Source: Gautieria morchelliformis (taxonomy: Eukaryota > Basidiomycota > Agaricomycetes > Gomphales > Gomphaceae). Taken from it: a DNA stretch of 64,000 nt. The translations under genes were made by a program, and so were the position numbers. The notes under the pieces were generated by a model. The model searched no databases, was not told where the DNA came from, and saw only the letters and a program-made list of their open reading frames with translations. The stretch spans positions 186,001-250,000 of the forward strand of contig WHVA01000114.1 of assembly GCA_015179125.1 (NCBI GenBank), written 5' to 3'. Of the stretch, positions 26,073 through 64,000 are shown piece after piece. Numbering within the stretch: the stretch's first letter is position 1; every line of letters begins with the position of its first letter.

Positions 26073-26452
26073 TGTAAATATAGGTATTTACCTGTGTTGC
26101 CATGAGGCAACACATAATAGCTGGTAGCTTACATAGCGCCAGTGGGTCCTCGCAGACCCACTGTATAGTTCTTGCGTGGGAATCCCCCGGGATTCCCCAG
26201 CTTAACTTTACTTGTAACCGTCACTACATCGTATTAGAATCACCACAGCTTGGTTGAGTTCTACTGCCTTGTGATAACACAAGTGATAAGCCAACAACCT
26301 TACCTTTTTGAACTTCCAACGACTGTTTGCCTAGCAAACAGTTGAAGAGTGGTTCCTGCAGCACCTTAGACAAGATCGCTGTGCTGACGATTGGAAAATC
26401 GTCAGAAAGCGCCCGTAGTACAACATACTACCATCGACTGTGCGCCTGCGAT
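26073..26452 (+). repeat. A1 5' LTR and leader, rich in hairpins
   Basis: Starts TGTAAATA at the end of the B-family fragment. It aligns with 60975-61305 of A2 over the segment around CCACTGTATAG and the GGGAA..TTCCC hairpin. It is nearly a chain of perfect inverted repeats: 26074-26080/26085-26091, 26093-26101/26106-26114, 26141-26148/26155-26162, 26178-26185/26190-26197, 26322-26330/26334-26342, 26384-26392/26397-26405. The LTR's right edge and primer site could not be fixed. Confidence 0.7.
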
Positions 26453-28937
26453 GTACCCGCTCAGTCGAATGGTGCGATCTAGCAGTTCGCGCAACAAAAC
26501 CCCGGTGCAGCCTAGCGACACCACGGCTGACGCTACCTTGGTCTCAGGGCCCAAGGAGATAGAAGACGGCGAAGTCGTAGACCTCGCCGCATCCGTCCTA
26601 GCACCAGAGGACGCGGACACCATCGACCACGTGTCTCCGAGCATGGAAGAGGCAGAAGGACATGATGGGGACAAGTCACGCTCCCCATCCTGCTCACCCC
26701 CACCTCGTGACAAAGGCAAGGGCCGAGCGAGATCCCCCGCCAGCAACGACGAAGGCTCAGCATTGGACCGGACGTCGCGACAAGTTAAGACCTGCAATGC
26801 AGCCCCCCAGTCGAAATATTGGACACCGGTTGCTCCCCTCAAGGAACAACGTCAAAAACGACAAGCACCTGAGGATAATCAGGACTTGGAATACTCGAGC
26901 TCAAGTTGAAAGAGCTCGAGGACAAACACCGCTGATGAGACAACGGTGGCCGTGTGGCTGAACAATCAGCTACACGAAGCAACCCAACGCATCGGTCATG
27001 CCGATGCGAGGAACGAGCAGATAGACCGCGAACTGGAGAACTGGCAGACGGGATCGCCGGCATAGTCACGACAGCACGCGGACTAGCAAGGTCACTCACG
27101 GGCCTGCGAGCGTCGCTGGCAGAATCCCGCACGGACGTGTGCCAGAGCAATACAGAGATTGCCGGCATAAGGGCGACACTACAAGCCCCGGAAGACAAGA
27201 ACGAGCATCACCACCACCAAACATCCCGTCCGTGCAGGATGTACGGTTCAGGAATGAATCGAGAAGCCGTAGGGCCAACATGGCCCCAGCGAGGGATGGC
27301 AAAACCATCCAACAGGCAATCCGCGAACAGGTGGCCTCGGAGGTCGACTCCGAGGACACAGCTGTGAGCCTGGAGCTCGAAGTCAAGCACTGGCAACGGA
27401 AGGAGGCGCAAGCCGCCCGTCGCTACACGCGCGCCCTGGAGCTGTGCAGGCAGCATGCCGAAAAGGTGGTGTCCCAAGCGCAGACTACCCAGCTGCCGAA
27501 TGAGGAGCAGGAGCGTGTCATCCAAGAAGCTAGACAAGCACGTTCTGCTCTTTTGAGCAGATTACGAGTCCAGAATGTGGGATTGACAGGGGACACCCGA
27601 CATCAATCCCCACGAAGCAGTGAGCAGTTAGAAACTGCCCCGCCATGTGCTGCTGTGCAGCCGCGCGAAAGGTCCGTTGCCTTGACTGAAGGTCAAGGCA
27701 TCCCGGACCAAATCGAAGGCCCGAAGAGCCATACGACGGCATCACACGGATGATCCGTGTAGGGCTCGCAGATGCCACAGACACGGACCCTGAAAAGTCC
27801 GTGCTCGCGAAAGCCGGCATAAAGCTGACACATCCCGAGCCATACGCCGGAGGTTTGGACCTCGAGGAATTCGAGGCATTCGTAGCGGGCATCTTGAGGT
27901 GGCTCAAGATGAACTGCCTACTAGGGCCAACCACCATGCATATGCAGGTGGATTACCTGGGCACTTGCCTAACCGGCGAGGCCCAAGAATGGTTCGTTCG
28001 AAACATTGAGTGTTTCGATTGTCAGGTCCGTGAATGGACCTTGGAAATGGCTATGCAAGGGCTGCAGAAGAGATTCATGCACACCCTCACATACCACCAT
28101 GCGTCAAACAAATTCAACGTGGTTGTGCAAGGCACGAAGACCGTTCAGGAAATGCTGAACGAGCTCACGAAGTACTCGGTGTGGATGATACAACCGCCCG
28201 ACGAATACACGCTCCGGAGACGGTTCGTGTCAGCATTGTGTGATATTTTGCACAATGAAGTCCTGAAGAAAGGCTACAACACCGAATCCAGCTCGATCGA
28301 GCAGCTCTTTGAAGCTGCCCGAATGATCGAGGAAGCATCCAGGTATAACCAAGGGATGCGCCAAGCAGAAACTGTGGCTGCAACCGCCATCACGTCACGG
28401 CTTGCGACGAGCAAGTCGACCACACAGTTGGGCTTTAACAAGCCCACTGCATTCCAGGCAACCAATGCCTTCCGTCAACCCATGGCGACAAAGCCACCAC
28501 AAACGGGTTGCCCACCTGAGGCGTCGGGAAGCTCGGCAAAGCTGAGCTACCCGCAAAAGCCATCCGGCCGCCCTCCAGATAGGCCACAAAATGCACATAG
28601 CAGCGCAAGCTGCTTTGAATGCGGCCAGACAGGCCACATCAAGGCTAATTGCCTGCACCTGAAGCTGAAAGTGCGGACAGCGGCCGTACGGCAGGACGAC
28701 GATGAGGGTCTGGAGGATCCCATCGATGCCTCTCTTCAAGAGATTGAAGAGGGGGAGGGTGACCCTCAGGAAACTGAGGATCAAGAAGGGAACGGCGAAC
28801 CAGCAGAAGCCTGGGAGCCAGAGCCATCCCAATACTACGATTGGGATGAGGACATGGCAGACAATCAAACTGCCTACAGATCCAGCGCGATTAGAATCGC
28901 GCAGGTAGACAAGACAGCCAAAGTCATGACCGCTTGA
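26453..28937 (+). CDS. A1 gag region
   Basis: Encodes a charged N-terminal part, a helical capsid-like region (MQVDYLGTCLTGEAQEWFVR, LTYHHASNKFNVVVQGTKTV) and a CCHC zinc knuckle CFECGQTGHIKANC at about 28610-28655. An acidic tail follows. The same layout is found at 61306-63850 in A2. Part of a fossil element and not intact as a whole. Confidence 0.8.
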
Positions 28938-29039
28938 ACGACGGCTCCAGACAAGGCGGCCAAACTGATGTATCATCATCAGAGCAAACACCGCATGCGA
29001 CCGGTACGGCCGCGTAGCGAAAACCGTACCCTATCGAGG

Positions 29040-29473
29040 TACTGGGAAATTGGTGGCACAAAGGCCCACTGGACAGTGGCAGTGAAGGGGTACTGCTATC
29101 CCCTGAATTCACGCATGCCACTGGCATAAAAACATTTGCCTTGGAACAGCCAATTGCCCTGCAATTGGTGTGCATCGGTAGTTGATCAATGATCAACTAC
29201 GGGACAAACACGACCATTAGATTTGGTCGCGAAACAGTCGAAGAATACTTCAATGTGGCGAACGTCGAATACTACGACACTATCTTGGGGACTCTGTTCC
29301 TAAAGAAACTAGGAGTGACCCTGGACTTTGCCTGTCCAGGGATGATCCGTGTGGGGAATGAAATCATCCCCACAGGAAAAGTAAGCATTGACGACGAAAA
29401 GTCATCGAAGAATGGCGCGAACCCAAAGGTGAGTAGAATCACCTTGGGGCCCATGCCCCCCCTGGCCAATTGA
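29040..29473 (+). CDS. A1 aspartic protease region
   Basis: The stretch near 29070 encodes PLDSGSEGVLLSPEF, with the DSG of retroviral-type proteases. YYDTILGTLFLKKLGVTLDF follows, as expected downstream of the active site. Part of a fossil element. Confidence 0.65.
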
Positions 29474-29549
29474 AGCCAGGAGGATGAGTATTGCGACTCG
29501 TCCTCACCCTCTCCCTACACCCATAGGGAGAGACGCTGTCATCTCACGA

Positions 29550-30402
29550 TGAAAGCGCTAGAAAAAAGGAAAAAGCCCTCGAGCACCAGGGGTCCGAACA
29601 GACGTACATGGCGCTTGATGGCTGCCCAAACTGCAACCATTGTCCTCACGGACGTTGACATCCCTCGCTTGCATGAGGAATGGATGGACAAGATCGCCGA
29701 CCTCATCGGTGGTATTCCGTTGGAACTCCCTCCCTTATGGGAGGTGAATCATGAGATCAATCTTATTGATTCCAACAAACACATGTGGTATAGACTACCC
29801 AAGTGTCCTGAAAACTTCCATGAGGAATTGTCCGTAAAGCTAGAATGATACACCACAGCGAAGTGGTGGATACCGGCAGTGGCCCATCAAGCAGTGCCAA
29901 TGCTGTGTGTACCGAAGAAAAATGGTACGCTACGTACCGTCTTTGACCTGTGACAGCAGAACGAGAACATGGTGAAGGATGTGACACCCTTCCCGGATCA
30001 AGATGTTATCAGGAGCGATGTCGCTTGGTGTAAATACAGGACAAAACTTGATATGTCAGAGGCATACGAGCAAATCTGTATTCGTCCTGAAGACGTCCCA
30101 AAGACAGCCTTTGCGACGATCCTTGGCACGTTTAGGAGCCAAGTGATACAGATGGGGGACTGCAACACCCCATCAACATTTCAACATCTCATGACATCGA
30201 TATTCCACGGCTGCATAGGTTGCTTCGTCCATGTCTACATGGATGACATTTTTATCTTCTCGCACTCGATACAAGAGCACGAGGAACATCTCCGTATAGT
30301 CTTCGACAGACTACAGAGCAGCCATCTCTTCTTAAGCAAAAAGAAGGTTCTCCTCTATTCAGAAAGAATGGAGTGCCTTGGCCACATCATCTCAAGGACC
30401 TC
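29550..30402 (+). CDS. A1 reverse transcriptase, left part
   Basis: Encodes SEAYEQICIRPEDVPKTAFA, CNTPSTFQHLMTSIFHG and the YMDD box in FVHVYMDDIFIFSHS (about 30228-30270). The domain is split by the insertion of element C at 30403-30408 and goes on after 43354. Confidence 0.8.
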
Positions 30403-30407
30403 CTGAT

Positions 30408-32560: not shown

Positions 32561-32568
32561 CCAAAGTC

Positions 32569-33686: not shown

Positions 33687-34598
33687 GATGTGTGCCCCTG
33701 CTGCCTGTACATAACCGGTTTGCCTGTCTTGAAGTAGAGAATGAAAAGCCCCCACTCCCCTCACTTCGTACAGACCCACCGGATAAAGTCACACAAAAAC
33801 CAAATCCGACACCCCGTCCATCCCGCATCCGCCCTTGGGAGAAACACCTTCCGAAGCGCTATGTTGTCGCTGCCACCCCTGGCCCCAAGTCACTAGTCAT
33901 TAAGGTGGAGATCCAGATGACGGATACGGCGGAAGTCAAATCCGGACCTGCCCTTGTCGATTGCAGGGCCACTGGTCAGTTTATAGACCGGGACTATGTG
34001 GAACGGAACCGACTGACCACCGGAAGTTGCAACATGCAATCCCGGTGTTCTATGTGGATGGAAGCCCCAATGAGGCAGGGTCCATCACGGAGATAGTAGA
34101 CACAATTCTCCGCTACGATGGGCACTCAGGACGCACTTCCTTTGCAGTCACCAGCCTGGGGAAGCAAGACATCATCCTCGGGTTTACCTGGCTTCAGGAG
34201 CACAACCTGGAGATCAATTGGCAGACTCGGAAGGTACTGATGAGTCGATGTCCAGCCAAGTGTCACATGTGCCGGTCGGAAGTGTGGAAGGAACGCCAGG
34301 AGCAGCGGAAGACCGAACGGCTCATACAGACATGTCGTTCTGGCCCCCATCCACTGCTTGCAGAAGAAGACTCGGAAGCGGAATTTGAACCGGATCCCAC
34401 CCCCAATTCCGATTCCGATTCCGATTCTGACGTCATCCGACTCGGCCTGGAAGATACACTGGCGGAAGGGGAGCGCTTGCTGTATGTAAACCTTCTGCCG
34501 GAGGCGGAACACATCCACGCCACTGGAAATATTTCGCAACGCCTTGCTGAAGCCTCCAAGAAGCATGATAGAGCGGAGGCGGAAATTCCGGAGTACCT
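33687..34598 (+). CDS. Element C protease region
   Basis: Contains EIQMTDTAEVKSGPALVDCR and LGKQDIILGFTWLQEHNLEI, the flap-side and ILG blocks of gypsy aspartic proteases. A Ser/Asp/Glu-rich linker follows. Cut at its end by the insertion of copia element D. Confidence 0.7.
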
Positions 34599-35096: not shown

Positions 35097-35109
35097 CGCC
35101 CCCTCAAGC

Positions 35110-36810: not shown

Positions 36811-36845
36811 ATGTGCGCCAGCTTGTCTCTGGGTTTGAGATCTTG

Positions 36846-39188: not shown

Positions 39189-39358
39189 GACTGGAGGATC
39201 AGGAGGTCAAGTGACTCTCCCTTCTACATGCTTGAGCAGATTTTTGGACTCGAAATAGCTGATGAGAGTGGCTCGCCACAATGGCCAATTACTTCCATCA
39301 GTAGCAAGCTTCTCAACACCCAACAGCTTCTCAGAAGTGTCTCCGGGGCCCATAACCC

Positions 39359-43349: not shown

Positions 43350-43354
43350 CTGAT

Positions 43355-44709
43355 GGAATACCATGACTTCACAGATGTCATTAGCAAGTCAAAAGGTGAT
43401 GCCTGATGGCCAAGGGGTTCACGCGGATGAAGACAAAATGCAACGCATCCGCAAATGGAGGAGGCCTGGCACGTTTAACGATGTGCAGAGATTCCTCGGT
43501 CTCGTCCAATACCTGGCACATTACATGCCAGACGTCAGTGCATACACCACACCCTTATCGGGATGTGTGCGCAAGAACCGTCCGTTTGAATGGATGCCAT
43601 TGCTGGACAAATGCTTCCACAGCATAAGGGCACTGGCCTGCAAGGCCCCAATCCTGCGTCCCATCGACGCATGGAATGCGGACCCGATATGGGTTGTCAT
43701 CGACGGTTCAAAGTCTGGTGTTGGTGCCGTATACGGCCAGGGACCAGACTGGAGAACCTGTCGGCCAGCTGGCTTCTTGTCAAAGAAGTTCAGTGTTGCA
43801 CAGCAACACTACAGAACACACGAGCACGAAAATATCGCTGTGCTTGAAGCCCTCATGAAGTGGGAGGACAAACTCCTGGGCGAAAGTTCACCCTAGTCAC
43901 GGACCACAAGGGTCTCGAGTACTTTGAGACCCAAAAGAACCTGTCTGATAGACAGGTCCGGTGGTGGGAGTTTTTATCCCGCTTCAATTACAACACCGTC
44001 CACGTTGACGGCGTTGAGAACAAAGTAGCGGACTGCCTATCCCACTACTATGAGAGCGATATGGGTGATGAGAAGCACCCGGATCACATCTTTGTCAACG
44101 CAGATGCGCGACTAGACCTGGACAGTGAGCTAATGCCCACTGACCGATACATGGAGCTGCGTACAGCAGCTACGAGGCGATCAACTCGCCTCGCAGAAAA
44201 AACAGAGCCGCGAACATTAGAGGCAGCGGCTATGAACGAAGGCTCCGTCAAGGAGCCTCGCCACGACACATCGTTGCCAGACAACGACAACGACAACGAC
44301 ATCCACGTCATTGCCACAGGTAATGACGGAGCTCCCCTACGAGAACTTGGACCTGCCAAAGGTCCTATGCGACTCTTACCATAAGGAGCCCATGTTCACA
44401 AAGATCATGGCGAACCTGGATGCACATCCAAGAGTCGGCATCCGGGATGGGCTGATTTGGACGAAGAATCAGCTCAAGAGGGATGTCATAGCCATCCCCT
44501 GGAATGTATTTCAAGGGGGAAGGAGGCTGGTCGAGATCATAATCGATCACGCCCACCAGACAATTGGCCATTATGGTCAACTGAAAACTTCAAACTACAT
44601 TCGAAGAACATACTGGTGGCCCAGTATGGCCTCGGACATCGAGGTATTCTGCACCTCGTGTGCGAAGTGCCAGACCACCAAGACAGGCACACAGCGGCCT
44701 GCAGGGCTA
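43355..44709 (+). CDS. A1 reverse transcriptase end, RNase H and integrase zinc domain
   Basis: Holds VQRFLGLVQYLAHYMPDVSA (RT thumb), WVVIDGSKSGVGAVYGQGPD and LVTDHKGLEYFETQKNLSDR (RNase H), then an integrase zinc-binding region (IDHAHQTIGHYGQLKTSNYI, CTSCAKCQTTKTG) interrupted by the solo LTR. Part of a fossil element. Confidence 0.85.
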
Positions 44710-45187
44710 TGTTGGGTGCATTTATGCTCCTGCACCAAAATCAAGCCAAATATGTTCCACCATTCGTATTTCCTTCCCATTTCTTGTCATATTGTTCTAC
44801 TATGATCACTTGATTTTTCAGAATTTTTCTATCAAAGATTTGTACTTCTATTTCAATTTGTTTTTCTTCTTTTCACCACCGGCACCCTTATGTAATCATT
44901 TCGACGCGCGCTGCCATGGGCGCTAAAGGGCTGGGTGGTAGTATATGCACAGTGAGACAGATTTCCCCCTCTCGACAACCAAATTCACTGAGAGAGGCAA
45001 GTAAATTAGTCTTATTCTCCTTCGATTTATTGACCTAGAAATCCTGTAGTGAATTAATTTCTAGGTATCTAGGTAGTGTATAATATTAAGAGTGACAACC
45101 AAATTCACTGAGAGAGTGAATTAATTTCTAGTCTATTCTTTTGAGCACCAAGTCCAGTCCTACTGCCTATAATTCCTGTCCTCTACG
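44710..45187 (+). repeat. Solo copia LTR, D family, inserted in A1 integrase
   Basis: Starts TGTTGGGTGCATTTATGC and runs through the same blocks as the D LTRs in opposite orientation. The five-base duplication GGCTA flanks it (44705-44709 and 45188-45192). It is clearly diverged from the D LTRs, so it stems from an older relative whose body was lost by LTR-LTR recombination. Confidence 0.9.
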
Positions 45188-45192
45188 GGCTA

Positions 45193-46320
45193 CTACATAG
45201 CCTACCCATACCCGATAGACCATGGCAATCTATCAGGATCGACTTCATGGGCCCATTGCCCAAGTCGAATGACTGTGATTACCTCATGGTAATCATAGAT
45301 AGACTCACGTCTCATGTACACCTCATCCCAACAACGACGATTGTGACAACTAAAGGAATAGCCTGGCTATTCCTGAAGGAAGTCATAAGACTTCATGGAG
45401 TCCCAGACTCCATAGTCTCGGATTGAGACTCGAAGTTCACGTCCATATTCTGGTGTGAGCTCCAATGACTCATGGGGACGAAACACCTCATGTCCACTGC
45501 GTTCCATCCTCAAACGGATGGCCCAACCGAACGGGCAAACCGTTCGATAGGTCAGATTCTTCAATCAGTTGTCAAAGACAACCAGAAGGACTGGGCCAGC
45601 AAGCGCCCAATGGTTGAGGTTGCTTTAAACAGCAACCTCAGCTCGACGACAGGGTTTGCGCCCTTCGAGCTGAACCATGGATATATGCCGCAGATCAACC
45701 TGCCAATGGCCATGGACACTCCCTTCAAGGGAGTGACAAAATTCGCACATCAGGCTTGATGGAACCTGATGGCAGCGCACAATGCCATCATAGAGCATCG
45801 CGTGACGCAGACATTTCAAGCTAATAAGAAACATTGCGAATGGGACATGTATGCGGTGGGAGACCACGTATACCTGTCAACCCAAAACCTGACCCTGCCG
45901 AAAGGGAGGGCCAGGAAGCTAATACCGCAATATATAGGACCATATCATGTGAAGGAGGCCCAGAATGACACCTCGATGGTAACCCTCAAGTTACCCGAGG
46001 AATTGACAAACTGGTGCATCACGCCAACATTTCATACCAGCCTCATACGAAGGTATGAAGCGAACAACGACGATCTGTTCCCTCGTCGAGAAGCAAAGTC
46101 ATTCTATGACTTTGGGGCAAACGACGAGGAAGAATGGCTCGTCGACGAGATCGTATCCCATCGATGGATAAACTCGAATGACCTAGAGTTCCAAGTCAGA
46201 TGGACTCTAGGAGACATGACATGGGAGCCCATGTCATCCTGTAAGGACCTCGAAGCCCTAGATACCTATCTAGAGCTTCGAGGCATGGCCAAACCATGTG
46301 ACCTACCTAAATGGCATTAG
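45193..46320 (+). CDS. A1 integrase core and chromodomain
   Basis: Encodes DFMGPLPKSNDCDYLMVIID (integrase D), STAFHPQTDGPTERANRSIG, FELNHGYMPQINLPMAMDTP, a GPY-like segment YIGPYHVKEAQNDTSMVTLK and a chromodomain (EEEWLVDEIVSHRWINSNDL, EFQVRWTLGDMTWEPMSSCK, near 46120-46260). The C-terminal 120 bases contain two of the longest hairpins of the element (46216-46225/46228-46237 and 46248-46256/46275-46283). Confidence 0.85.
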
Positions 46321-46441
46321 GACACATCGGTCACATGTGATCACATGATGCGCCAAGCCACGGCGCTATAAATCTTCACCTCGGATCTCTCCGAGGGCGC
46401 TTCACTTCTTAAGAAGCGACCACCACCATCTTCTAACGAAG
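46321..46441 (+). promoter_or_regulatory. A1 spacer with TATA-like box and stacked hairpins before the accessory ORF
   Basis: Between the pol stop and the accessory ATG lie overlapping CACATGTG-type palindromes (46331-46348), TATAAAT (46367-46373), the inverted repeat 46379-46385/46390-46396, the palindrome CTTCTTAAGAAG (46405-46416) and the inverted repeat 46426-46433/46438-46445. The accessory ATG (46442-46444) sits in the 3' arm of the last one. Function is inferred only. Confidence 0.5.
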
Positions 46442-46887
46442 ATGGATGGCATCAAAGAAGCCATGGACGTTGAGCCATCAACGTCCACGTCACCACCAGC
46501 GGCTCCAAAGAAGGGGGCTGCCGCCATCTTCTCGAAAAAGTTAGCTCCCGAAAACTGGGAGATAGCGTTGTGGAACGACGGACTTGCCATTATCCACTCA
46601 GATAAGTGCGAATGTTGTGAATCATACGCAACCCACTTAGCGGAGTCATCAAACTCCAGTAAGATACGGATGCTAGACAATGACATCGCCTACGCTGTTG
46701 AGGACGCCTGGCCCTGGATCATCAAAGGGGCCAGGCGGATGGCAGTTGAGGACGCTCAGGCAGAGATTGAGCGCCTCAAGCAGGACCTCATCTCCGAGCG
46801 TGAGCGAGTTTCATGCAGAGACGACAAAATCCACGAGTTGAAACAACAACTCGAAGGAGCCAGGCAGACGCGTCCCGCCCTGCCATG
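46442..46887 (+). CDS. A1 accessory ORF after pol, unknown function
   Basis: Begins MDGIKEAMDVEPSTSTSPPA, with a Pro/Ser/Thr-rich start and a compact part APENWEIALWNDGLAIIHSD plus KCECCESYATHLAESS. A coiled coil follows (AEIERLKQDLISERERVSCR, then DDKIHELKQQLEGARQ). Its position after the chromodomain is where extra genes of LTR elements lie, but I see no signal peptide or membrane anchor, so it is not env-like. Cut short at 46887 by element B. No family recognised. Confidence 0.65.
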
Positions 46888-47598
46888 TGTTATGTATTGG
46901 AAATCCTGGAGGTCGGAACTGGAAAGGACAACGGCTTCAACTTATATGTTGCGCCCCTGATGAATTACCGTCCTAAGTATTTCGGATTTGACTTCCAGAT
47001 GTCGGAGAAGGCGGAAGTCGAGAGTAAGGTCAACAGTCGAGGGTCAGAGAACAGAGGTCAGAATAGGTGGAAGAGGTGGAGGACAGAGGATCAAGAACGG
47101 AGAGGGACAAGACTAGCAAAACTCGCTGTGCTAAGAACAGGAGACAGTGCGAAAGGATTCACGTATTGAAGTCGATTATCTGATTGCAGAAATGGAGACA
47201 TACATGAGGGGGTTTTATACAAAGAGCAGAAGCAACAGGTAATGGTATGGTACTAAGCAAATTCCGGAGAGTGCGGGAATCGGATAGACATACGGGGCAA
47301 GTAACTAGTGCGGAACAAGGGGATGACAAGGGGGTGCAGGGTAGGGTAAGTACAATGGCAAAGAACAAGGCGAGTAAGTACAATGGGCATTGGAACAAAT
47401 GGAATTACGGAAATAGTATCTTGCTGTTTTCAGGGTTGAGTATGGGGGCCAGTATCTGGAGGTGGCCAGAAGAACAAGGGGTCAAGGTAGAGGGTTGCAG
47501 ATGGTGCGGATGTTGCAGAATAGAGTCGGAGGTAGCGCGGAGGTGACGTGGAGGATATGCAGAGGTGGCGGAGATGGTTGAGCAGAACAGTCGTAACA
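46888..47598 (-). repeat. Element B 3' LTR
   Basis: About 711 bases bounded by TGTTA and TAACA, with the purine tract just outside at 47600-47612. Its first 200 bases match 60775-60974. The right border rests on the TAACA terminus and the adjacent purine tract. Confidence 0.8.
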
Positions 47599-49049: not shown

Positions 49050-51009
49050 GTCGGAAAGGACTTTGTGTGCAAGAAGGGGTCCAGGCTTGGCAGGGTATCC
49101 CTTGTGGAAATCTGAGACGAGTTCAGAGGTGTGGTCGAGTTCCGTGGTGGAAATCCAGGAAGTCTCTTTGTCTGTGTTCTCGTAGCCTGCCCACTTGACT
49201 AGGTACTGGAGTTGACAACGGTATCGCTTGTTGAGCTTGGAATTGAGGATTTATGAAATCTCATATTCCGGTTCTCCGTCGATGATGACTGGTGGAGGAG
49301 GAGGTTGTTCTCGATTTGGAATGGTATTCAGAACTGCAGGTTCAAGCATAGACACATGGAATACCGGATGTACTGCGCGCATATTGTCAGGGAGTCTGAG
49401 AGTGAAAGAACGACTGCCGGCCTTAGCGATGATCTCGTAAGGTCCGAGGTATTTTTCAGAGCGCTTCTTCGAGGGACGAGTGGTGCAGAAGTTTTCAGCT
49501 TTGACAAAGACTTTGTTGCCTATCTCAAATGCCGGTTGCGGAAGGCGTTTCCGATCGGCGGAAGTTTGGTATCTCTTTTGGGCAGCAGAAATGTTCTCTC
49601 AGAGGTGCTGGTGAAGGTCGTCGAGTTCCACAACGAAATCTTGGGCTCTGGCAGAGGCGAGGTCACATTCAGGGTGGATGGTGAGATTCGGGTGGTAGCC
49701 TTTGTTGGTGTAGAAGGGCGAAATTCCAGTGGTGGCAGAAGGTGCATTGTTGTAAGCGAATTCCATGAGCGGAAGAAGGTCGGACCAATTGCTGTGTTGG
49801 TAGTTGCAATAGACGCGGGGGTACTGCTCGAGGGTTTGATTAGTGCGTTCCGTTTGTCCGTCAGCTTTGGGATGATAACCGGAAGTGAAGTGGAGTTTCA
49901 TGTCGAGAGCCTTGCCGAGTGTGCGGAAAAAGGATGACACAAATTCTGATCCACAGTCGGAAGTGACATGGGAGGGGATTCCGTGCTTGGAAAAGACGTG
50001 GAGCACGAAGAGCTGTGCGAGCTGGGCGGAAGTAATGGTGTCGTAAGTCGGAATAAAGATCGACTGCTTTGTGAGGCGGTCAACAATAACTAGAATGGTA
50101 TAATAGCCAGATGACTTAGGAAGTTTCTCGATGAAGTCCATGGATATTGAATTCCAGGGTTGTTCCGGGATCAGAAGTTGCTTCAGGAGGCCGTAGGGTT
50201 TGTGAGGTTGAGGCTTGGCGTGCATACAGGTGGTGCATGACTTGCAGTAGTCTTGGACCATCGTGCGGAGGAGAGGCCAAGTGTAGGTACATCGGATGAT
50301 GTCGAGGGTCTTGTTCTGGCCTTGGTGTCCTGAGAGTGGATGATCGTGGCTTTGCTGGAGTACGCGAAGTCGTAGATAGTTGATGTCTGGAACATAGATC
50401 CGGGACTTGTAGCGGAGAAATCCATCGGAATCAAGGGACCATCCAGGACTGGTTGGGTTATCAAGGTGGGTTGCGGAGATGGGGTTGGAACGGATTGCGG
50501 AACGGATGTTGGAATGGAGAGACTCGGTGTCCATAATGATCGAGGCGCGGAGTAGCAGAAACTGCAATGCTGTGGCACACAGGGACGATGCCAGCTGCTC
50601 AGTTGAGAATACTGGGCGGAAATTGTGCGGGTTAACGCTGGCATAGTCGCTACTTCCCTCTTTTGGGTAGACGTCCCAACGTCTAGTTAGCACGTCGGGT
50701 TTTGCTCCGAGCTTTCTGGGGCGGAAGCGGATCACCATATTGAACTGTGAGAGATATTCAGACCAGCGGACTTGACGATGAGTCAAAATCTTAGTAGTCG
50801 CAAAATACTCAAGGTTTTTATGGTCTGTTACAATGTCGATCAGATAAGTTGGACCTTCGAGATAGTGTCGCCAAATTTTGAAGGCTTCAAAGATTGCAAG
50901 TAGTTCCTTATCGTGGATGTCGTAGTTGAGTTCTGGGGCGGAAAAGGTGCGGGAATGAAAAGTGATTGGATGAATTTCTCTGTCGTCGGGGGAAATTATT
51001 GAAAGGATG
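49050..51009 (-). CDS. Element B RNase H, integrase and chromodomain
   Basis: Minus strand from 51009: RNase H end (HDKELLAIFEAFKIWRHYLE, VTDHKNLEYFATTKILTHRQ), integrase HHCC (SHDHPLSGHQGQNKTLDIIR, CKSCTTC), integrase core (MDFIEKLPKSSGYYTILVIV, YHPKADGQTERTNQTLEQYP) and a GPY-like part (RPSKKRSEKYLGPYEIIAKA). A chromodomain (CQLQYLVKWAGYENTDKETS) lies near 49050-49290. Confidence 0.88.
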
Positions 51010-51013
51010 GCGG

Positions 51014-51449
51014 TGTAAAAATGCAATGTACTGCAGGTGTAGATGCAACGATAATGTCGAGTGACCTCAAGATCGCACAAGCTAGCTTATGAGTGCGAGC
51101 AAGGTGCATAAGATAAGATGATCCTCTAAAGCTGCGTACAAGCCTAGTTATAGGGAAAGGACAATGAGCTGTGCAGTGGCACGAGTGGAAACTATGCAAA
51201 TGGTGGACAAAGGCACTATCAGTGGACCGTTATACGTGAGTGGAAAGTGGATCAGGGCGGAAGGTGGACATATGCAGACACAATACCATCAGTGGACTGC
51301 ATCAAAATAAGGCACACATGTGTGAGACAAAATAAAAGAGGAATAGTGTCCGAATCCTAATCACTATGAATCTAAAAATAGAACATCAAGACAAATCGAG
51401 ACATAGACCGTATCTGAAATCACTGTACAGGGAGTGTAACTCCCTTACA
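51014..51449 (-). repeat. Element E 3' LTR
   Basis: 436 bases from TGTAAAAATG to CTCCCTTACA on the plus strand. It ends with a small hairpin (AGGGAGT GTA ACTCCCT). Confidence 0.93.
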
Positions 51450-51509
51450 TCTCCCCGGGACTAAAATGTTGACCGTCCCCGGTCAATTGTAAGGCTGGGA
51501 AGGCAGACA

Positions 51510-52760
51510 TCAACTGGAGACGGAGGCATCCAAAGGGATATCGCTATTGTCAACGACTGACGTTACGGGAATGATGGTGCATGAACGGGGATAATAGGGG
51601 ACCAAGCGAAAAGCGGCGAAAGGCAGCTTATGAACAGACCCATCGAGCTCGGCGAGGATATACGTGCCATTACGGTTGCGTCTGACCACAAGGAGAGGCC
51701 CCAGATAACACAGCTTTGTCTTTCGAGATAGGTCAGCCTCAATCCTCGTGTTACAGACCAGAACAAGTGAGCCAGGCGCGAAGTTGTAGTCCTTAATGAG
51801 ATTTGTGTTCCCCTTCTTGAACTGAGCAATGGACGCATAGCGGGCTTTCAGGACATGGTCTTTCACTGCTGCCAAGTCTTCCTCCCTCTTCTCGAGCTGA
51901 CGAGCACGGATCGCAATGAGGTCGACATAGGAGAGGGGTTTGTCGAGCTTCGGCACCAGGAAGGTGGCTTCAGCGAGGTCGAAGGGAAGGATGGGGTCGA
52001 TACCGTGTGCCATGTAGAAGGGAGAAAGCCCCGTGTCTTTGCATACCGTAACACGATCCGCCCAAAATACATGGGGCATAACGGAGGGCCAGCGGGTGAT
52101 ATCGCCATCGCAAGCCTTAACGATGGATTCTCTGATGCTCCTGTGACTTCACTCTACAATCCCATTAGCCTGTTTGTTATAGGGAGAGATTCGGATATGA
52201 GTAATGTGGTATTTCTTCGCCAGCCAGTCCAGTCCCACAATGATCGGCGCCCCATTATCCATAACAATCTCCTCCACCGCACCCCACCTACACAGCAGAT
52301 CCTCGAACACAAACTTCCCCACTGCCACACCCGTTTCCTTCGCCAATATCCTGAACTCGGGATATGAAATCAAAGAACATCGGCCCTGCAAAATATATGA
52401 CACTCCCGCGACCTTTGGCATATGCATCGTATCAATGTGAACCCTGCGAAAGAGAGGGGCGGGCGACGCAACAACTGGCGGAATGTGGATGTGCTGCGTA
52501 GAGCATATCTGGCACTCGTGGCAGGTTTTGATAAACCACACCACATCACGGTTGATGCCCGGCCACCAGAAGCGATCCGCCAGGGTGCAGCGCGTCGAAT
52601 AGAAGCCCTTATGGCCAAGCTGGTCGTGCGCCTGAAGAATGAAAGAAAGACGGTCAGCAGGAAGAAATATGACGAGTTGATGGATTTTAGTGGATCCACG
52701 CCACCAGAGTTGGCCATTGCGCACGAAGAATTTAGTGGCACATCTAATAAACTTTTTGAG
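51510..52760 (-). CDS. Element E integrase
   Basis: HHCC-type zinc motif (AHDQLGHKGFYSTRCTLADR, CHECQIC, about 52490-52620). The core has VHIDTMHMPKVAGVSYILQG, EEIVMDNGAPIIVGLDWLAK and PYNKQANGIVE. The C-terminal part includes GLSPFYMAHGIDPILPFDLA and PGSLVLVCNTRIEADLSRKT. Part of a fossil element. Confidence 0.88.
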
Positions 52761-55022
52761 CTGAGTGTCATCAAAACCGGTGGGCTTCAGGGCAGTAGTC
52801 AAAAATTCTTTGATTCGGGGCAATTCCAGATCATCGCGAATGTCCGTGTCCGAGCGAGGGATGGTGAGATCAGGTCTTGGAGCAGGCAAGGAGCGCATAG
52901 TAAACGTGAGGAAAGGGGAGGGGTACACCGGGAGCGGGAGAGATTCTGGCGGCACCTGTTCATCAGCCACCTCTTCAAGAAAATTACTTGCCGGCATCAA
53001 CGCTTGCCCCCTGGTCAGATAACCGACACTTCGTTGGAAGTGCAGTAGCGTTGACCCGGCCTTCTCCACTGCCTGCGCCCCTACCCAAGAATTTACCCAA
53101 ACCCCCAATTCCAAAACCTCATCTACCCAATCATCCTGCGGCTCCTCCTCATCCTCCGGTGCTGGCCGCCGTCGAGAAAGACCGTCCAGCCCCGCATGAT
53201 CCTTGCCCAGCACGTGCACAAGGTCAAAGTCAAAGAGCAGAATCCCAGCGATCCATCGGTTCATGGCGTTATTCGGTTGTGTGTCCGGATTGTTCAGCAT
53301 TCCCTTGATATATTTTGCGTCGGCTTCCAGGCTGAACGTTGGCAGGCCCACAAGATGAATTCGAAGAGCCTTGAGGGTCCGAAAAACGCCATGCAGTTCC
53401 AGCTTTGACTGCGAATATCTAGCCTCGTGTTCCATCCATGAAATGGAGCCGTACCTCGACGGTTTCCTCCGGCCCCGTTCGTCGAGCTGATAGACAATCC
53501 ACCCCACCGCGATAAATGAAGAGTCCACAGCGAGGATGACTAGACGCTTGCTTAGATAATCAATAGGTGCCAACGCGGGTGCGGCCACAACACGCCGCTT
53601 CAAACAATCCATCGCCTCCTGCTGCTCTTCCCCCCACACAAGCTCAACATCCTTTCGCATCAACTGCACCAATGGCCGCGCAATTTCTGCAAATTTCTCA
53701 ATGAAGATACGCACGACCCCACAGGTGCCCAAAAATCCCCGTACTTCCGTCAGATCGTGACAGACTGGCCAGTTCTCGATCTTCGACACTCGAGCCTGGT
53801 CCGGGACCCGTCCCTCATAATTGCAAGTGTGGCCCACTATGTTCACCTCCGGGACCCCTAGGACAAGCTTGTGGGCCGAAAAGGTGCCACCTGCATGCTT
53901 CATGCGGTGGAAAATCCTGTTGACATCGGTGAAGTGCTCCCAGACAAACCGTCGTATGTTCGGATTCTCAGCAAGTGTTTCGTAAGTACCGCCTGGCAGC
54001 TCATAGTGTGTTTTCGGACCTAGAACAGGGATGTCATCTAGGAACGGCGGTGCCGTACCAAGTTCGTCTTGCAAGATAAAAGTGACGTGTCCTTGAAAAA
54101 TAGATACTGAGTTGGACCATCCCATTGGGAGGGCCATGAGGCGATGAGGACCGAGGGGTGTCTGGAATGTGGTGAGGTCTCAAGATTCCGGAGCTATGGG
54201 CGCGTGGTCATATCCCACATAAAGGTCACCGAGCGAGTAGATAGCCCGGCCCATGCAGTGCTCCGCATATGGCTCCACGTTCGGCGGAAGACCCACGTCC
54301 TTTATTGTCACAGCATTCAACGGCTGTAGATCATGAACAATACGGAACTTCCCATTTTTCTTCGGCACACAGAACCAGTGTGACCTATAGGAGGAGCCAG
54401 ATGGTTCGTACGTCCCACTCGAAATCTTGTCCTTTATAAACTGAATGACTTCGTCCCGCAACCCGTGTGGAATAGGAATGTTCTTCAATGCCCACAGCTC
54501 GTGTTCGACGGTCGGTATGATAACCGGATCAAAGTAGTCCTCCCGAAACTTCCCCCTCTCCATATCCTCCCAATCCAGAGCCCCCTCGTTCTTCATCAAC
54601 ATTTCGAACGCCAAATTCACCTCTTCCTCCCACAGAAACCCTTGCCTGTGCAGGCCCAACCCCTCCCACCTTTCCCTTGTCAACCTCTCCCCAAAAATCA
54701 GCGGCGCAGATGGGTGCAGTGATAGTTGCGGAAGCATGAGAAGTGGATCTTCTGGAAACCGCTGCTTCGGCCTCACCTGTTCTGGAAGTGTAGTCGCTAC
54801 GGGCCGAATCTTTCGCGCCAATGGCTTATACTTGAGTCCCAGTGCCGGTGTCGTGAAGTCATACACAGTCCACAAGTAGTACAAGGCCATTGGTAAGTTT
54901 GCCGAGAACAGGGACGGAACTTTGGCCATACTAACTGAACCTGAAACTGGCGAAGGAGAAGGCGTTGTCAGCGCTAGATGTGCCTGGCGGTGCTCGCCTG
55001 CATGGTGCGGCATCATCGGCAC
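52761..55022 (-). CDS. Element E reverse transcriptase and RNase H
   Basis: RT blocks include SGTYEPSGSSYRSHWFCVPK, KNGKFRIVHDLQPLNAVTIK and MALPMGWSNSVSIFQGHVTF. The usual catalytic acidic box falls at PFLDDIPV (about 54020). RNase H-like sequence has VILAVDSSFIAVGWIVYQLD and SQSKLELHGVFRTLKALRIH. Part of a fossil element. Confidence 0.82.
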
Positions 55023-55110
55023 TCATACACGGGCCTGGCTTCTTCGGGTCAAAGATTATTAATGTTTCCCCCACATCCTCCGTGTCACACTGCGCCGCCC
55101 TCTGGAATGG

Positions 55111-55854
55111 TCAACCCAGCAACAGACGGTAAGGAGCCTTTTCGATGATCCATGCGTGGACAAATATGCTGATGCCCGCGATGGTGAGCTCCAAGTTTTC
55201 CACCACACCCATGTTTGTCTTGGTCCCTCCATTCGCATCCCTCATGTTTAGCTTCAGGTCCGGATTCCAAGGCAAGTTTAGCTCCTTCACTGCTTCCTTG
55301 CTGATACAAACTAACTCCGCTCCGGAATCGTAAAGGCGGACTTCGCTGAATTGACCCGCAACCTTGACGTTAAGCTCCATGATCGGCAACGAGTAGACTG
55401 GCGCCGTCGTTTCTAGAAGGCTGTCGGTGGTGAGAGAAGACGGCAACTCAGGGGAAAGAGAGTAAGCAGCCGTTCGGTTCACTTTACAGAAATCGACCGT
55501 ATACTTGCGGAAATCCGGTGACAACCCCATAAGCTCCGCTGTTGACACATCCGCCCTCGCTGCCATAACTCGCTCGAAAACCCTCTGGACAGCACTAGCG
55601 TCGTCGCACTTGGACCTGTAGGTGTACTGCGACGGTTTACGGTCCGAGTTGGCTGACCCCTGCGTTTTTGCAGCGGCCTCGTCCGTAGTTACGATCGCTG
55701 GGTATGCCCCCCTCATCTCCTCCTGTACACCCTCCTCCACCTCATTGAGTCCCCCCCCTGTGACTCCCAAAACCTCCTCCTCATCCACCGGATCCACCTG
55801 CAAGAATGCTACAGCTGCACCTTGCACCCCCGATGTCTGAGCTTGGTCCACCAT
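55111..55854 (-). CDS. Element E protease region
   Basis: Contains the retroviral-type active site in VRLYDSGAELVCISKEAVKE, and later IFVHAWIIEKAPYRLLLG. The N-terminal half is acidic and may be linker. Part of a fossil element. Confidence 0.78.
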   Translation of the reverse strand: MVDQAQTSGVQGAAVAFLQVDPVDEEEVLGVTGGGLNEVEEGVQEEMRGAYPAIVTTDEAAAKTQGSANSDRKPSQYTYRSKCDDASAVQRVFERVMAARADVSTAELMGLSPDFRKYTVDFCKVNRTAAYSLSPELPSSLTTDSLLETTAPVYSLPIMELNVKVAGQFSEVRLYDSGAELVCISKEAVKELNLPWNPDLKLNMRDANGGTKTNMGVVENLELTIAGISIFVHAWIIEKAPYRLLLG

Positions 55855-55884
55855 GAACTTGATCCCCCGTGGGTCATTCAGGAT

Positions 55885-57066
55885 TCAGGATCCGTTGGGC
55901 CACCGATAGAACCCTTGCTCGCTGATAATGACCCTTCCCAGCCGTACATATTCCATCCCGATTGGGCACTCCCTAGGTGTGCGTCCCGCACAATTCGAAG
56001 CCTTGCAGAAAGGACAAGTCCGTCCTCCCAGAATGGGCTGGAAGGGGGGTGCCTGGTGAGGATTACTTGTTGGCGCCAAGGCATAGGCTGCGGGTGTCTT
56101 CAAAACATTAATGTAGCTGGGCTGCTTTGAAAGAACTTGAAAGTACGTAGTAGCGTATGCCTCTTCCTCAACTTTGAGGCCTCGCAGCTTTTCCAACAGG
56201 TCAGTGACGTCCAACGGCCTGTCTGCTGGCAAGCGAACCGTTTTCTTGACAACCTGCGGGTCCCCCGCCACTCCCTGGGACTTCAAGCTGGACGCCAGCG
56301 CAGGCAAGGCCGAAGGTATGACACGGTTAAAGGCGTTGCTATTGAAAATATCACACCCAGCTTTATAGACATCTGTGATAGCGAAGGGATCCTCCCGCGG
56401 ATGATTAGGCGTGACGATCCTGAGACGACGCTCGAGCTGCTCTTGGGTGGCGGGGTGGAAGCCGAACCAATAGTAGCGGGCAGCATCCTTTTCAGACAGT
56501 TGCTTGTCCGTGATCAGGTATGCCGCAATTCCCTGAAAGCCTCGGTGATACACATGCAACTCAGTATCCGTGGTGATAAGTTCGGCAGCGGAAGCTTGGA
56601 TAAAAGAATCAAGAGTGGCACGCGTACACTTCTTGGTCTGGAATGCTCCCCCAAAGGCCTCCTTGATAGAAGTGCTAAACACATCCCAATCCTCCGTGGC
56701 ATACCCGTCGAAGGCTTCAAAGGTGAGCCGCTGAGCGCGGTCTAGGTATCGAAACATAAACTTCACCCATTCTGCTTTAGGGAGCTGCGCATCATCAGCG
56801 CAGCATTCATAGATTTCCAAAAACTCAGCAATATCCTCCTCATCACCTTCGAATGTTTTCGGGGCTTTCTTCGACCGGGGGGCAGGCATAGCCACTTTTC
56901 CTATGGATTGGGCCATGGCGTGGGGAGAAACTGGCAAAGGTGGCTGTTGAGGGGTGGAAGAAACTGGTCGGGGAATGCGAGATGGTGTTAAGGCCGTGCT
57001 ACGCAGAACACGAGCTGTTGGAGGGGAAGGCTTTTTTGAGCGTTTCGGAATGATGGCGAAGGACAA
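55885..57066 (-). CDS. Element E gag region
   Basis: Gag-like helical domain (KTFEGDEEDIAEFLEIYECC, EWVKFMFRYLDRAQRLTFEA, ATEDWDVFSTSIKEAFGGAF) preceded by a Pro/Ser/Thr-rich basic N-terminus. The C-terminal part has CPFCKASNCAGRTPRECPIG, an unusual Cys-rich motif rather than a standard CCHC knuckle. Part of a fossil element. Confidence 0.82.
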   Translation of the reverse strand: MSFAIIPKRSKKPSPPTARVLRSTALTPSRIPRPVSSTPQQPPLPVSPHAMAQSIGKVAMPAPRSKKAPKTFEGDEEDIAEFLEIYECCADDAQLPKAEWVKFMFRYLDRAQRLTFEAFDGYATEDWDVFSTSIKEAFGGAFQTKKCTRATLDSFIQASAAELITTDTELHVYHRGFQGIAAYLITDKQLSEKDAARYYWFGFHPATQEQLERRLRIVTPNHPREDPFAITDVYKAGCDIFNSNAFNRVIPSALPALASSLKSQGVAGDPQVVKKTVRLPADRPLDVTDLLEKLRGLKVEEEAYATTYFQVLSKQPSYINVLKTPAAYALAPTSNPHQAPPFQPILGGRTCPFCKASNCAGRTPRECPIGMEYVRLGRVIISEQGFYRWPNGS

Positions 57067-60774: not shown

Positions 60775-60974
60775 TGTTACGTATCGGAAATCCCAGAGGT
60801 TGGAACTGGAAAGGACAACGGCTTCAACTTATATGTTGCGCCCCTGATGAGCTACCATCCTAAGTATTTCGGATTTGACTTCCGGATGCCGGAGAAGGCG
60901 GAAGTCGAGAGTAAGGTCAATGGTCGAGGGTCAGAGAACAAAGGTTGGAATAGGTGGAAGAGGCGGAGGACAGA
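60775..60974 (-). repeat. Element B 5' LTR, part; cut by A2
   Basis: Matches 46888 onward for about 200 bases, then stops exactly where A2 begins with TGTAAA. The remainder should lie beyond A2, outside the window. Confidence 0.85.
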
Positions 60975-61305
60975 TGTAAAGAAGTGGATTCAGAGGGGGG
61001 GGGTCCACAAGACCCCACTGTATAGTAGTGCGTGGGAACCGCCGGCGGTTCCCCAGCTTGATCGCATCTTACCCTTACACTGTCACTACGTAGCATCAGA
61101 ATACCACACATTGGTCAAGTTCTGTCGTGCTCTTGTGACTTAAGGCTTAAGATAGACATCTTTTACACCTTTTTGAACTATCCTGCGGTTGATCGCTACA
61201 CGACCAACCGATAGTGGATTCGAAGCAATCTTGAAAAAGATCGCTGCGTCGACGACTAAACATCGTTGAGACCCTCCAGTAGACCTTCTACTGTCGGCTG
61301 CGAGC
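60975..61305 (+). repeat. A2 5' LTR and leader
   Basis: Starts TGTAAAGAAG. It carries hairpins at the same relative places as A1: 61000-61005/61011-61016 and 61034-61041/61046-61053, plus 61277-61283/61287-61293. Confidence 0.7.
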
Positions 61306-63850
61306 ATGATGATCCCACGCAGTCGAAGACGGACACAAGCGACGAGCTCGAGGTCCACACCCCAGGTGCAGCCCAGCGACACGACGGCTGATGCTATCCT
61401 GGACCAAGAGAACAGGACGATAGAAGATGGAGAGATCGTAGATCTCACCGCCCTCGTCCCCCCAGTAGAGGACGAGGAAAACCCCTACCACGTCTCGTCG
61501 AGCATGGCCAAGGAAGAGATGACGCCGGGCAACGAGCTGGCGCCGCCCCCCCATCTCTCTCTGCCCAAGGACAAAGGAAAGGGCAGAGAAGTCTTGCCGT
61601 CGTCAGACGGTAGAGCAACAACATCGAGGCGGGCACAAAGCCACGACTCAAACCGACGCTCACGAAGTAGAGCGACGATGATCGTCCCTGAAGGAGGACG
61701 ATGGCAAAAGAGACGAGCCCCAGACGATGGTCAGGACTCGGAATACTCAAGCTCTAGTCGCAAGAGCTCGAGGGCTCACACCATCGACCACGAGACGGCA
61801 GAGGCCCTGAACAAACAGGTGCAGGCTGCGCTGCACCGAAGCACGCTGACGCGCCACAAGCACGATCAGCTGGCATCGCAGCTTGACAATGCCACCGCCG
61901 CCCTAATGGCAATCGGCAAGGAACTCCACCAGGCAGAGGAGATCAGGCTGCAAGACGCAGCCACGCTGGAGGACGTCCAGAAAGCACTCCGCCCACGTGG
62001 GGAGCGCGACGCAACTCGTCCGAGCTCGCGACAGTCCGCAGCTAACGAACGCAGTGGCGATGTGCACCGAAATGAGCGAGACAAACAGCGAATGCCGCCA
62101 CCAGCCGTCCCGGTCGAACAGGACGTAAGGTTCGGGAACGAACCTCAGGAGAAACCGGCTGCCCCAACGGACAGCCGTAAAACGATCCAACAGATCGTTA
62201 GGGATCAGGTCCCCTCAGAGCCTGACTCTGAAACGACGACCGAGAGCTTAGAGCTCGAAGTCACACACTGGCAGCGTAAAGAAGCCGCAGCTGCGCGCCG
62301 CCACACACGGGCACTCGAGCTACTAGCGAAGAACGCTGAAGAGACAGTGGCCCACAGCCACACCGCTCAGCTGCCCGACGAGCAGCTCACGCAAGCCGTA
62401 CAGGACGCACGGCAGGCACGCGCAGCCTACAACAGCAGGCTACGGATCCACAATGTGGGACTGACCGGGGACACCAGGCACAAAATGCCCCCGGAACCGA
62501 GAGCACAGAATGCTCCCGATCCTGAGCCCGATCTGGGCCCGGGGCCCGTCAGGGCATATAACAGCCTGCCCCGTGCGGCATCACAACCACGCGAGCGATC
62601 CATGGCCCCAACGGAAGGCCAGGGAATCCCTGACCAGGCCAACGTCGTACCAATGGAGCCGTACGACGGGATCACACGGATGATCCGCGTGGCGTTAGCA
62701 GACACCGCGGACACAGACCCGGAGAAGTCTGTGCTAGCGAAAGCCGGCGTAAAATTGGCACACCCCGAGCCATATGCCAGGGGATCTGACCTCGAAGAGT
62801 TTGAAATCTTCGTGGCAGCCATCCTATGATGGCTAAAAATGAATTGCCTCCTAGGGCCAACCAGCATTGACATGCAGGTCGGCTATGTGGGCACTCGCCT
62901 CACCGGCGAAGCCCAGGAGTGGTTCCTTCGAAACGTTGAACGCTTCGATCGCCAGGTCCGCAGCTGGACGCTGGAAACCGTGATGCAAGGCCTTCAAAAA
63001 AGGTTCCTGCACACACTGACGTACCATCATGCATCGAATAAATTCGACGCGGTCATGCAAGGCATGAAAACCGTTCAGGAGATGCTGAACGAGCTCACGA
63101 AATACGCGGCACGTATGATACAGCCGCCAGACGAGTACACGTTCCGGAGACGGTTCGTATCAGCGCTGCGCGAAACGCTGCGCAACGAGGTCCTCAAAAA
63201 GGGCTATAATGCCGAGAGCAGCTCAATAGAGCAACTCTTCGAGATGGCCCGGATGATCGAGGAGGCATCCCGATACAACATGGGGATGCACCGCGCAGAA
63301 AGCGCAGCAGCAACGGCAAGCGCTGCCCGGCTCACAGGGAGCAAGCCGTTGACACAAACGGGCCTGACCAGGCCCAGCCTGTTTTCAAGAAGCGGAACAG
63401 GACAACGGCTACCGCCATTACGCCCAGCACAAGCTGGACACCCGCCTGAAGCTAAACAGCCTCAAGTGTCAGGATCATCCCCACGACCTGCCCCAGCAAC
63501 GAAAGCATTGGGCCGGCCTAACGATGGGCCCAGCGGCAGCCAAAGCAGCGCTATGTGCTTTGAATGTGGCCAACCTGGCCACAAGAAAGCGGAGTGCCCC
63601 CGGCTTAGGTCCAGTATCAGGACAGCAGCCGCGAGGCACAACGATGAGACCGAGGATCCAGAGACGGATCTCGGTCAAAATTCTCTTCAACAGATTGATG
63701 AAGAGGGGGAGGGTGATCCCCAACCCAACGAATCTCCGGACAACGGAGACGCACCCGCTGAAGAGTGGGATCCCGAACCGTCCCAGTACTACGAATGGGA
63801 CGAAGAGGCGGAAGACACTGCCTACAGGTCCAGCGTGATCAGAATCGCGC
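61306..63850 (+). CDS. A2 gag region
   Basis: Begins MMIPRSRRRTQATSSRSTPQ with a long charged N-terminal part (VVTHWQRKEAAAARRHTRAL-like helices). A capsid-like region matches A1, followed by a CCHC knuckle CFECGQPGHKKAEC (about 63556-63600) and an acidic tail ending with the conserved SQYYEWDEE block. Part of a fossil element. Confidence 0.82.
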
Positions 63851-64000
63851 CGGAAGACAACACTGCACGAAAGTCATGGCGGCACGCACATTGGTTACGC
63901 CAGACAAGGCGGCTGAGCCGGTGTATCACCACCGAAGTAAGCACAGGACACGGCCAACGCGCCCGCGCAGTGAAAACTGTACCCTCTCGGGGTACTAGGA

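Follow-up and report, generated by a model that had tools for sequence, protein, structure and literature searches.

Two copies of a repeat family, A1 and A2, lie in a 64,000-nt stretch of the Gautieria morchelliformis genome (hereafter the window; the genome comprises 122 Mb in 1113 contigs), and both carry short hairpins whose arms differ in sequence yet still pair. Does this pattern reflect selection on the structure of a nucleic acid and, if so, is it the sense RNA that is selected to fold?

Family A is a high-copy Ty3/gypsy LTR retrotransposon. The A2 gag was found in at least 107 places in the genome (among 2459 candidates) and the A1 gag in at least 105 (among 1965). The 5′ part of copy A1, comprising the LTR, leader, gag region and start of pol, occupies 26073..30407 of the plus strand, and its LTR begins TGTAAATA at 26073. 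A nested element breaks the copy at 30408; pol continues on the plus strand at 43350..46527 (A1b), ending where detectable homology to L115, a downstream piece of another copy, stops at 46527. A1b carries RNase H (43363-43896) and SH3_Tf2-1 (45769-46320) domains, and the A1 pol is split by a solo copia LTR at about 44698-45194. Copy A2 (60975..64000, plus strand) has its LTR start, TGTAAAG, at 60975 and runs past the end of the window. Its ORF1 (61306-62829) is followed by a second ORF (62839-63999) that matches Retrotrans_gag (PF03732) at 25.8 bits against a cut-off of 24.1 and the zinc knuckle (PF00098) at 20.7 bits, marginally below the cut-off of 20.8. The Ty3-type gag with zinc knuckle was thus recognized from A2; the A1 gag ORF had no Pfam match at E 0.001.

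The order of reverse transcriptase before integrase, characteristic of Ty3/gypsy elements, was pieced together from several copies rather than read from one continuous frame: RVT_1 directly follows gag in L025, and L115 carries integrase H2C2 and then rve (the latter below its cut-off). L115 also contains, past the integrase region, a 495-aa open frame (L115:1782-3266) that would encode an extra protein and had no Pfam match at E 0.001. Direct LTRs surround the coding region: on C340, same-strand repeats that enclose gag lie about 8.2 kb from each other. The LTR is 214 bp long, with a 97.2% match between the 3′ LTR of one copy and the 5′ LTR of another; no 3′ LTR of A1 was found within the 64-kb window. 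At E 0.001, 70 homologous proteins were recovered among 7994 scored candidates, one of them labelled as from Gautieria morchelliformis. A more distant gag protein (P0008) had 104 scored places in the genome at 52-57% identity, many of them already family-A places, and none of six pattern matches to family-A relatives in viral contigs was confirmed.

A sequence-only reading of the window had singled out six stems as maintained between A1 and A2 by compensatory changes, and all six lie where it had placed them and pair in both copies. In the LTR, hairpin H2 (61034..61053; stem of 8 bp, loop CCGG; A1 26178-26197) shows the changes T:A to C:G and C:G to G:C, and hairpin H1 (61000..61016, stem of 6 bp; A1 26140-26163, stem of 9 bp) shows T:A to G:C, although the alignment of H1 is the least certain of the six because a G run adjoins it in A2. 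The A1 LTR holds four consecutive perfect hairpins (26074..26197) with stems of 7, 9, 9 and 8 bp. The four coding stems occupy the same alignment columns in A1 and A2. In gag hairpin S1 (62712..62733; A1 27782-27803), a G:C pair in A1 is A:T in A2, both codons change synonymously (Thr ACG/ACA, Ser TCC/TCT) and the peptide is the same in both copies; in S2 (63779..63802; A1 28825-28848), A:T becomes G:C, again synonymously (Pro CCA/CCG, Asp GAT/GAC), and the peptide differs in the loop only. The pairing check also bore out two switches (A:T to G:C, T:A to C:G) and a single mismatch in gag hairpin S3 (63164..63187; A1 28234-28257), and two compensatory switches with the outermost pair lost in A2 in hairpin S4 (63918..63935; A1 28965-28982). 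Two further gag hairpins stand beside these, one with identical arms in both copies (63072..63091; A1 28142-28161) and one with another compensatory pair, C:G/T:A (63360..63375; A1 28429-28446). All of these hairpins are on the plus strand.

Five of the six coding switches in these stems are CpG to TpG/CpA transitions, in one direction or the other, on both arms, and when both members of a Watson-Crick pair undergo a transition the result pairs again in every case, so no single stem proves selection. A matched-column covariation test that kept the phylogeny and covered S1, S2, S3 and six further stems gave joint p values of 0.012 and 0.013 for S1, 0.11 for S2, and 0.026, 0.027 and 0.36 for S3, with a best p of 0.0027 among the six further stems. 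These single-pair values are modest because the copies compared give essentially one deep split. The same reading had proposed to test the stems for covarying pairs in an alignment of many copies. When 44 gag copies were aligned, some of them gapped at the stems, clades A1 and A2 each had a preferred stem version, broken versions occurred in both clades, and stems break in old copies. Among LTRs, perfect 6-bp stems were required, a simple rule that may mistake a neighbouring stem for H1 or H2: of 40 A1-like LTRs, 32 had H1 and 30 had H2, and of 29 A3 LTRs, 27 had H1 and one had H2, the A3 H2 stem being bulged.

The aggregate comparison of A1 (26093-29047) with A2 (60975-64000), which are 64.6% identical, was far less equivocal. 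We counted perfect stems of at least 6 bp, scored a stem as kept if at most one pair was broken, and permuted the A1/A2 substitutions 1000 times among sites alike in base, codon position and CpG/TpG/CpA context. With A1 as reference, 15 of 36 stems were kept in A2 against 1.88 expected (sd 1.31), with 13 compensatory pairs against 0.98 (sd 1.25); with A2 as reference, 15 of 32 were kept against 1.91, with 11 compensatory pairs against 0.90. No permutation reached the observed stem or compensatory counts, even when substitutions were permuted inside 500-nt blocks. In gag plus protease, 17 of 32 stems were kept (4.2 expected) with 8 compensatory pairs (1.1 expected), and in the A2-referenced comparison 16 of 33 (4.6 expected) with 4 compensatory pairs (1.16 expected), a number that some permutations matched.

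Stem retention in pol is a weaker replicate of that in the gag region. In its second segment, 11 of 25 stems were kept against 3.8 expected, and 8 of 19 against 3.0 in the reverse comparison, both equal to the maximum among 500 permutations; the numbers of compensatory pairs (4 against 1.25; reverse, 3 against 0.64) were also reached in some permutations. The first segment, with few stems, kept 3 of 6 (1.3 expected; reverse, 2 of 3 against 0.6), and two control repeat pairs had too few stems to inform. Dropping the condition that the stem survive left a smaller excess of compensatory pairs over four segments and both directions (58 against 37.4), which consisted of transitions (53 against 29.6) with no excess of transversions (5 against 7.8). 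The fates of individual hairpins differed: some hold their axis while the arms change or lengthen, and others shift or exist in one clade only. In the copy alignments behind the arm list and the variant and axis comparisons, the pol part is badly aligned for some copies, and the 43-row alignment leaves out L019, which has a 500-base insert.

Hairpin density set family A apart from its surroundings. Among 2-kb bins of the window, family-A stretches were the most extreme (for instance, 25 and 23 stems of at least 6 bp in the two bins from 26 to 30 kb, where 3.7 and 3.2 were expected); the bins at 34-36 kb (copia; 11 against 4.9), 48-50 kb (7 against 3.1) and 22-24 kb (8 against 3.4) also exceeded expectation, and most other sequence was near background. 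The solo copia LTR (44698-45194) has hairpins of its own, which are included in the 44-46 kb bin and in the A1b hairpin and spacing counts. We also compared 32 loci, each about 4 kb long and all but two of them A2 or A2-like and hence related, with four dinucleotide shuffles per locus: stems of at least 6 bp numbered 1498 against 242 (6.2-fold), those of at least 7 bp 731 against 60.5 (12-fold) and those of at least 8 bp 237 against 14.5 (16-fold). Shuffling codons in a way that kept protein and codon usage still left 15 family-A frames, several of them belonging to related copies, with a hairpin excess of z 4.2-14.1, compared with -0.8 to 2.2 for five control frames (A1b offered no frame of 230 codons). 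Family-A hairpins therefore arise largely through synonymous codon choice. Among four types of paired seven-mers, only the hairpin orientation was strongly enriched (182 against 8.9); parallel complements (16 against 7.7), mirror repeats (5 against 10.4) and direct repeats (16 against 17.0) were not comparably so.

Individually, the hairpins are small. Loops of 3-6 nt were the most frequent and the excess faded past about 14-20 nt; the longest perfect stem in the loci searched was 13 bp, and the usual Dicer substrate is longer than this. Hairpins reach 13 per kb in L115 and follow one another at a mean spacing of 74-96 nt, with no periodicity (CV 0.71-1.02) and no consistent bias in the codon register of stems. 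A search of Rfam returned no matches at gathering cut-offs.

Perfect, short stems with compensatory changes could in principle also be written by template switching at quasi-palindromes, in which reverse transcriptase or DNA replication copies one arm onto the other in the absence of selection. This mechanism has been published for rRNA and microRNA hairpins, and the hairpins that it makes, as described in PMC8794818, resemble those of family A in being perfect and short and in bearing compensatory changes. It predicts perfect Watson-Crick stems and agrees with the irregular spacing and with the lack of a preference for G.U. We nevertheless think it improbable. Clustered changes on one arm, the mark of one-arm rewriting, were not seen in family A; differences between the clades were in fact spread more evenly over both arms than a binomial would give (imbalance sum 24 against 36.6, 27 stems). 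Nor was loop inversion seen by eye in any of the 17 listed compensated stems, although the divergence is old and may blur such marks. Codons in stems matched outgroup gag proteins about as often as other codons did, the match being higher in six of eight comparisons (for example, 55/83 against 167/297) and lower in two (27/64 against 147/274; 26/53 against 130/232); of two such comparisons with pol outgroups, one was higher and one lower. Between copies 91% identical to each other, double changes were not in excess (2 against 1.4; 2 against 2.1), but selection predicts no excess there either. Finally, template switching alone would yield no bias toward the sense strand.

Such a bias was observed. 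We measured folding energy in 350-nt fragments as the excess over dinucleotide shuffles. In 41 family-A fragments from A1, A2, L001 and L115, the mean excess was 26.1% in the sense strand (range 0.3-48.0) and 20.5% in the antisense strand, and sense exceeded antisense in 33 of the 41 (Wilcoxon p printed as 0.0000). The controls, 49 fragments sampling roughly one third of their sequence, showed 2.7% against 2.1%, with sense higher in 26 (p 0.72). The 5′ part of A2 itself showed no sense bias (18.4 against 18.0), and a comparison of z-scores in 150-nt windows was mixed, four segments favouring sense and A2 favouring antisense.

The strand asymmetry bears on the possibility that the selected molecule is DNA or the minus strand (as cDNA hairpins, cruciforms or antisense RNA) rather than sense RNA. 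What speaks for this reading is the type of mismatch: A.C pairs, which are G.T on the opposite strand, were commoner than G.U both in imperfect stems (17 of 36 against 3 of 36) and at stem ends. Among shared variants, G.U numbered 38 and A.C 51, and against expectation G.U stood at 61 (105.3 expected) and A.C at 118 (144.6 expected), so that G.U was not favoured, which selection confined to the sense RNA would not lead one to expect. Sense-strand loops are A-rich (0.339 against 0.205 in stems) and linkers are rich in A+C, which may explain A.C at stem ends, though such unpaired stretches may account only partly for the predominance of A.C over G.U. Set against the better folding of the sense strand in most fragments, we regard selection on DNA or the minus strand as quite improbable: the sense bias favours selection on RNA over DNA, while G.U tolerance carries no such signal.

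That the stems are accidental and only seem compensated, since double transitions at decaying CpG sites re-pair, is very improbable, for although most coding switches are of this kind, the compensatory excess lies in transitions and single-pair p values are modest, the counts were not reproduced by context-aware permutations, codon shuffles or repeat-type controls. As a sufficient account, CpG decay is refuted by the permutations, the locus-wide density and the codon shuffle; it may hold for single stems.

The many copies also allowed us to ask when structure is kept and when it is lost. Private substitutions were as frequent in stems as elsewhere, both per non-CpG column (0.553 against 0.529) and in CpG columns (0.435 against 0.469), so stem conservation reflects shared history and not events in dead copies. 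Stems carried fewer variants common to at least three copies at non-CpG columns (0.154 against 0.203), but not at CpG columns (0.623 against 0.602). In 29 clade-A2 copies, which are related and hence not 29 independent points, the excess stability of gag was lower where the private load was higher (rho -0.57, p 0.001), and so was hairpin count (rho -0.38, p 0.044). It thus seems that the replicating lineage maintains structure and that inserted copies lose it.

Together, these results uphold the earlier claim that the covariation is a sign of selection on structure, on the strength of the aggregate excess, the hairpin density, the repeat types, the sense bias and the fall in stability with private load; the six stems alone, on which that claim had been built, do not carry it. 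We consider it probable, from sequence comparison and predicted folding, that family-A sense RNA is selected, while the lineage transposes, to fold into dense local hairpins. Under this model, the sense RNA, as genomic RNA and mRNA, would be under folding selection during transposition, with hairpins mostly of 6-10 bp and loops mostly of 3-10 nt distributed across LTR, leader, gag and pol. Folding as such may be the selected trait, as in GORS, and might shield or compact the genomic RNA, whether against Argonaute-bound small RNAs, against nucleases or for packaging into particles, while a few hairpins, such as those near the conserved UGA that separates gag from pol, could act locally. A more specific version is tentative and in our view rather doubtful: the roughly 100 hairpins per 8-kb element, encoded in synonymous positions, would together both protect the RNA from small-RNA silencing and act as packaging signals, distributed and Gag-binding, and those conserved in position would be under real covariation. 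If true, this would amount to a genome-wide RNA architecture for which no parallel in any transposable element was met in the literature searched.

The closest known counterpart is GORS, described in PMC7642675 as a genome-wide excess of folding energy produced by many consecutive local stem-loops. Family A shares both features, with folding energy elevated in the 41 fragments along the element and many discrete stem-loops. Its mean sense-strand excess is above the values quoted there for HCV (7.5-10.7%), human pegivirus (12.5%) and SARS-CoV-2 (about 15%), and above the highest among vertebrate RNA viruses in that account (23.4%), although a different shuffler makes the figures only roughly comparable. 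Pairings in GORS are poorly conserved between relatives, as the same source reports for sarbecoviruses, whereas family-A stems are partly conserved in position, 15 of 36 being kept at 65% identity while others turn over. GORS belongs to the genomes of positive-strand RNA viruses, with a link to persistence and innate recognition, and family A is a fungal LTR retrotransposon, so its RNA would be better described as working like GORS than classed as GORS. Yeast Ty3, likewise a Ty3/gypsy element with structured genomic RNA, is described from SHAPE-MaP as having a well-folded core that makes up about 20% of that RNA (PMC11381356); the term covariation is absent from the text of that account that was examined. 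Among the open-licence papers listed in literature searches, we saw none that reports GORS, or hairpins throughout the genome, for an LTR retrotransposon.

A candidate for a local role lies at the gag-pol junction, where three consecutive hairpins, one of them flawed in A1, surround the gag-terminal TGA (29461..29532, plus strand; TGA 29471-29473). The TGA is conserved in A1, yet it is out of frame with the upstream ORF at 27750. Among 29 copies, the gag end read TGA in 28 and CTG in one, with the same context (then AGCCAG) in 27, and the same site recurs at about 3094 (gag orientation) in L010, L018, L025 and other loci. Past the TGA the median open run of the frame in phase is 126 codons, with some of these runs truncated where the locus ends, and the other two frames close within 50 codons; in L025 this open frame contains RVT_1. 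One hairpin holds the TGA in its loop; in L010, a stem of 12 bp begins six bases downstream of the TGA. This arrangement points to probable RNA-structure-assisted readthrough of the stop codon.

The host has Piwi-domain genes or pieces of them (contigs C948, C147 and C449) and RdRP genes or pieces (contigs C247, C315, C556, C959 and C504), which is a condition for the shielding idea and not proof of it. In such a host, the idea of genome-wide RNA folding would be extended from RNA viruses to a transposable element. With at least about 100 gag copies, selection in the live lineage and later neutral decay can be compared directly. Selection at synonymous sites can span all coding regions of a retrotransposon, which matters when insertions are dated from silent sites.

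Other elements in the window were structured to differing degrees. Moderate structure was seen on the coding strand of the copia element at 35097-39354 (minus strand; 11.5% against 5.8% on the other strand, 12 fragments) and of part of the nested Ty3 element at 30898-34590 (plus strand; 10.7% against 5.8%); the other part of the latter gave 2.2% against -3.5%, and the Ty3 stretch at 49599-57066 gave -2.8% on the coding strand against -1.8% on the other. The copia element is like family A in having a structured coding strand, and unlike it in having a small codon-level excess of hairpins (z 2.2 and 1.3). In the listed gag copies, in-frame stops are mostly TGA, which would fit C-to-T decay of CGA codons. 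Finally, a 210-bp repeat, 91% identical between 46888-47097 and 60775-60983, reaches nine bases into the A2 LTR start and is either a preferred insertion target or a piece of another element.
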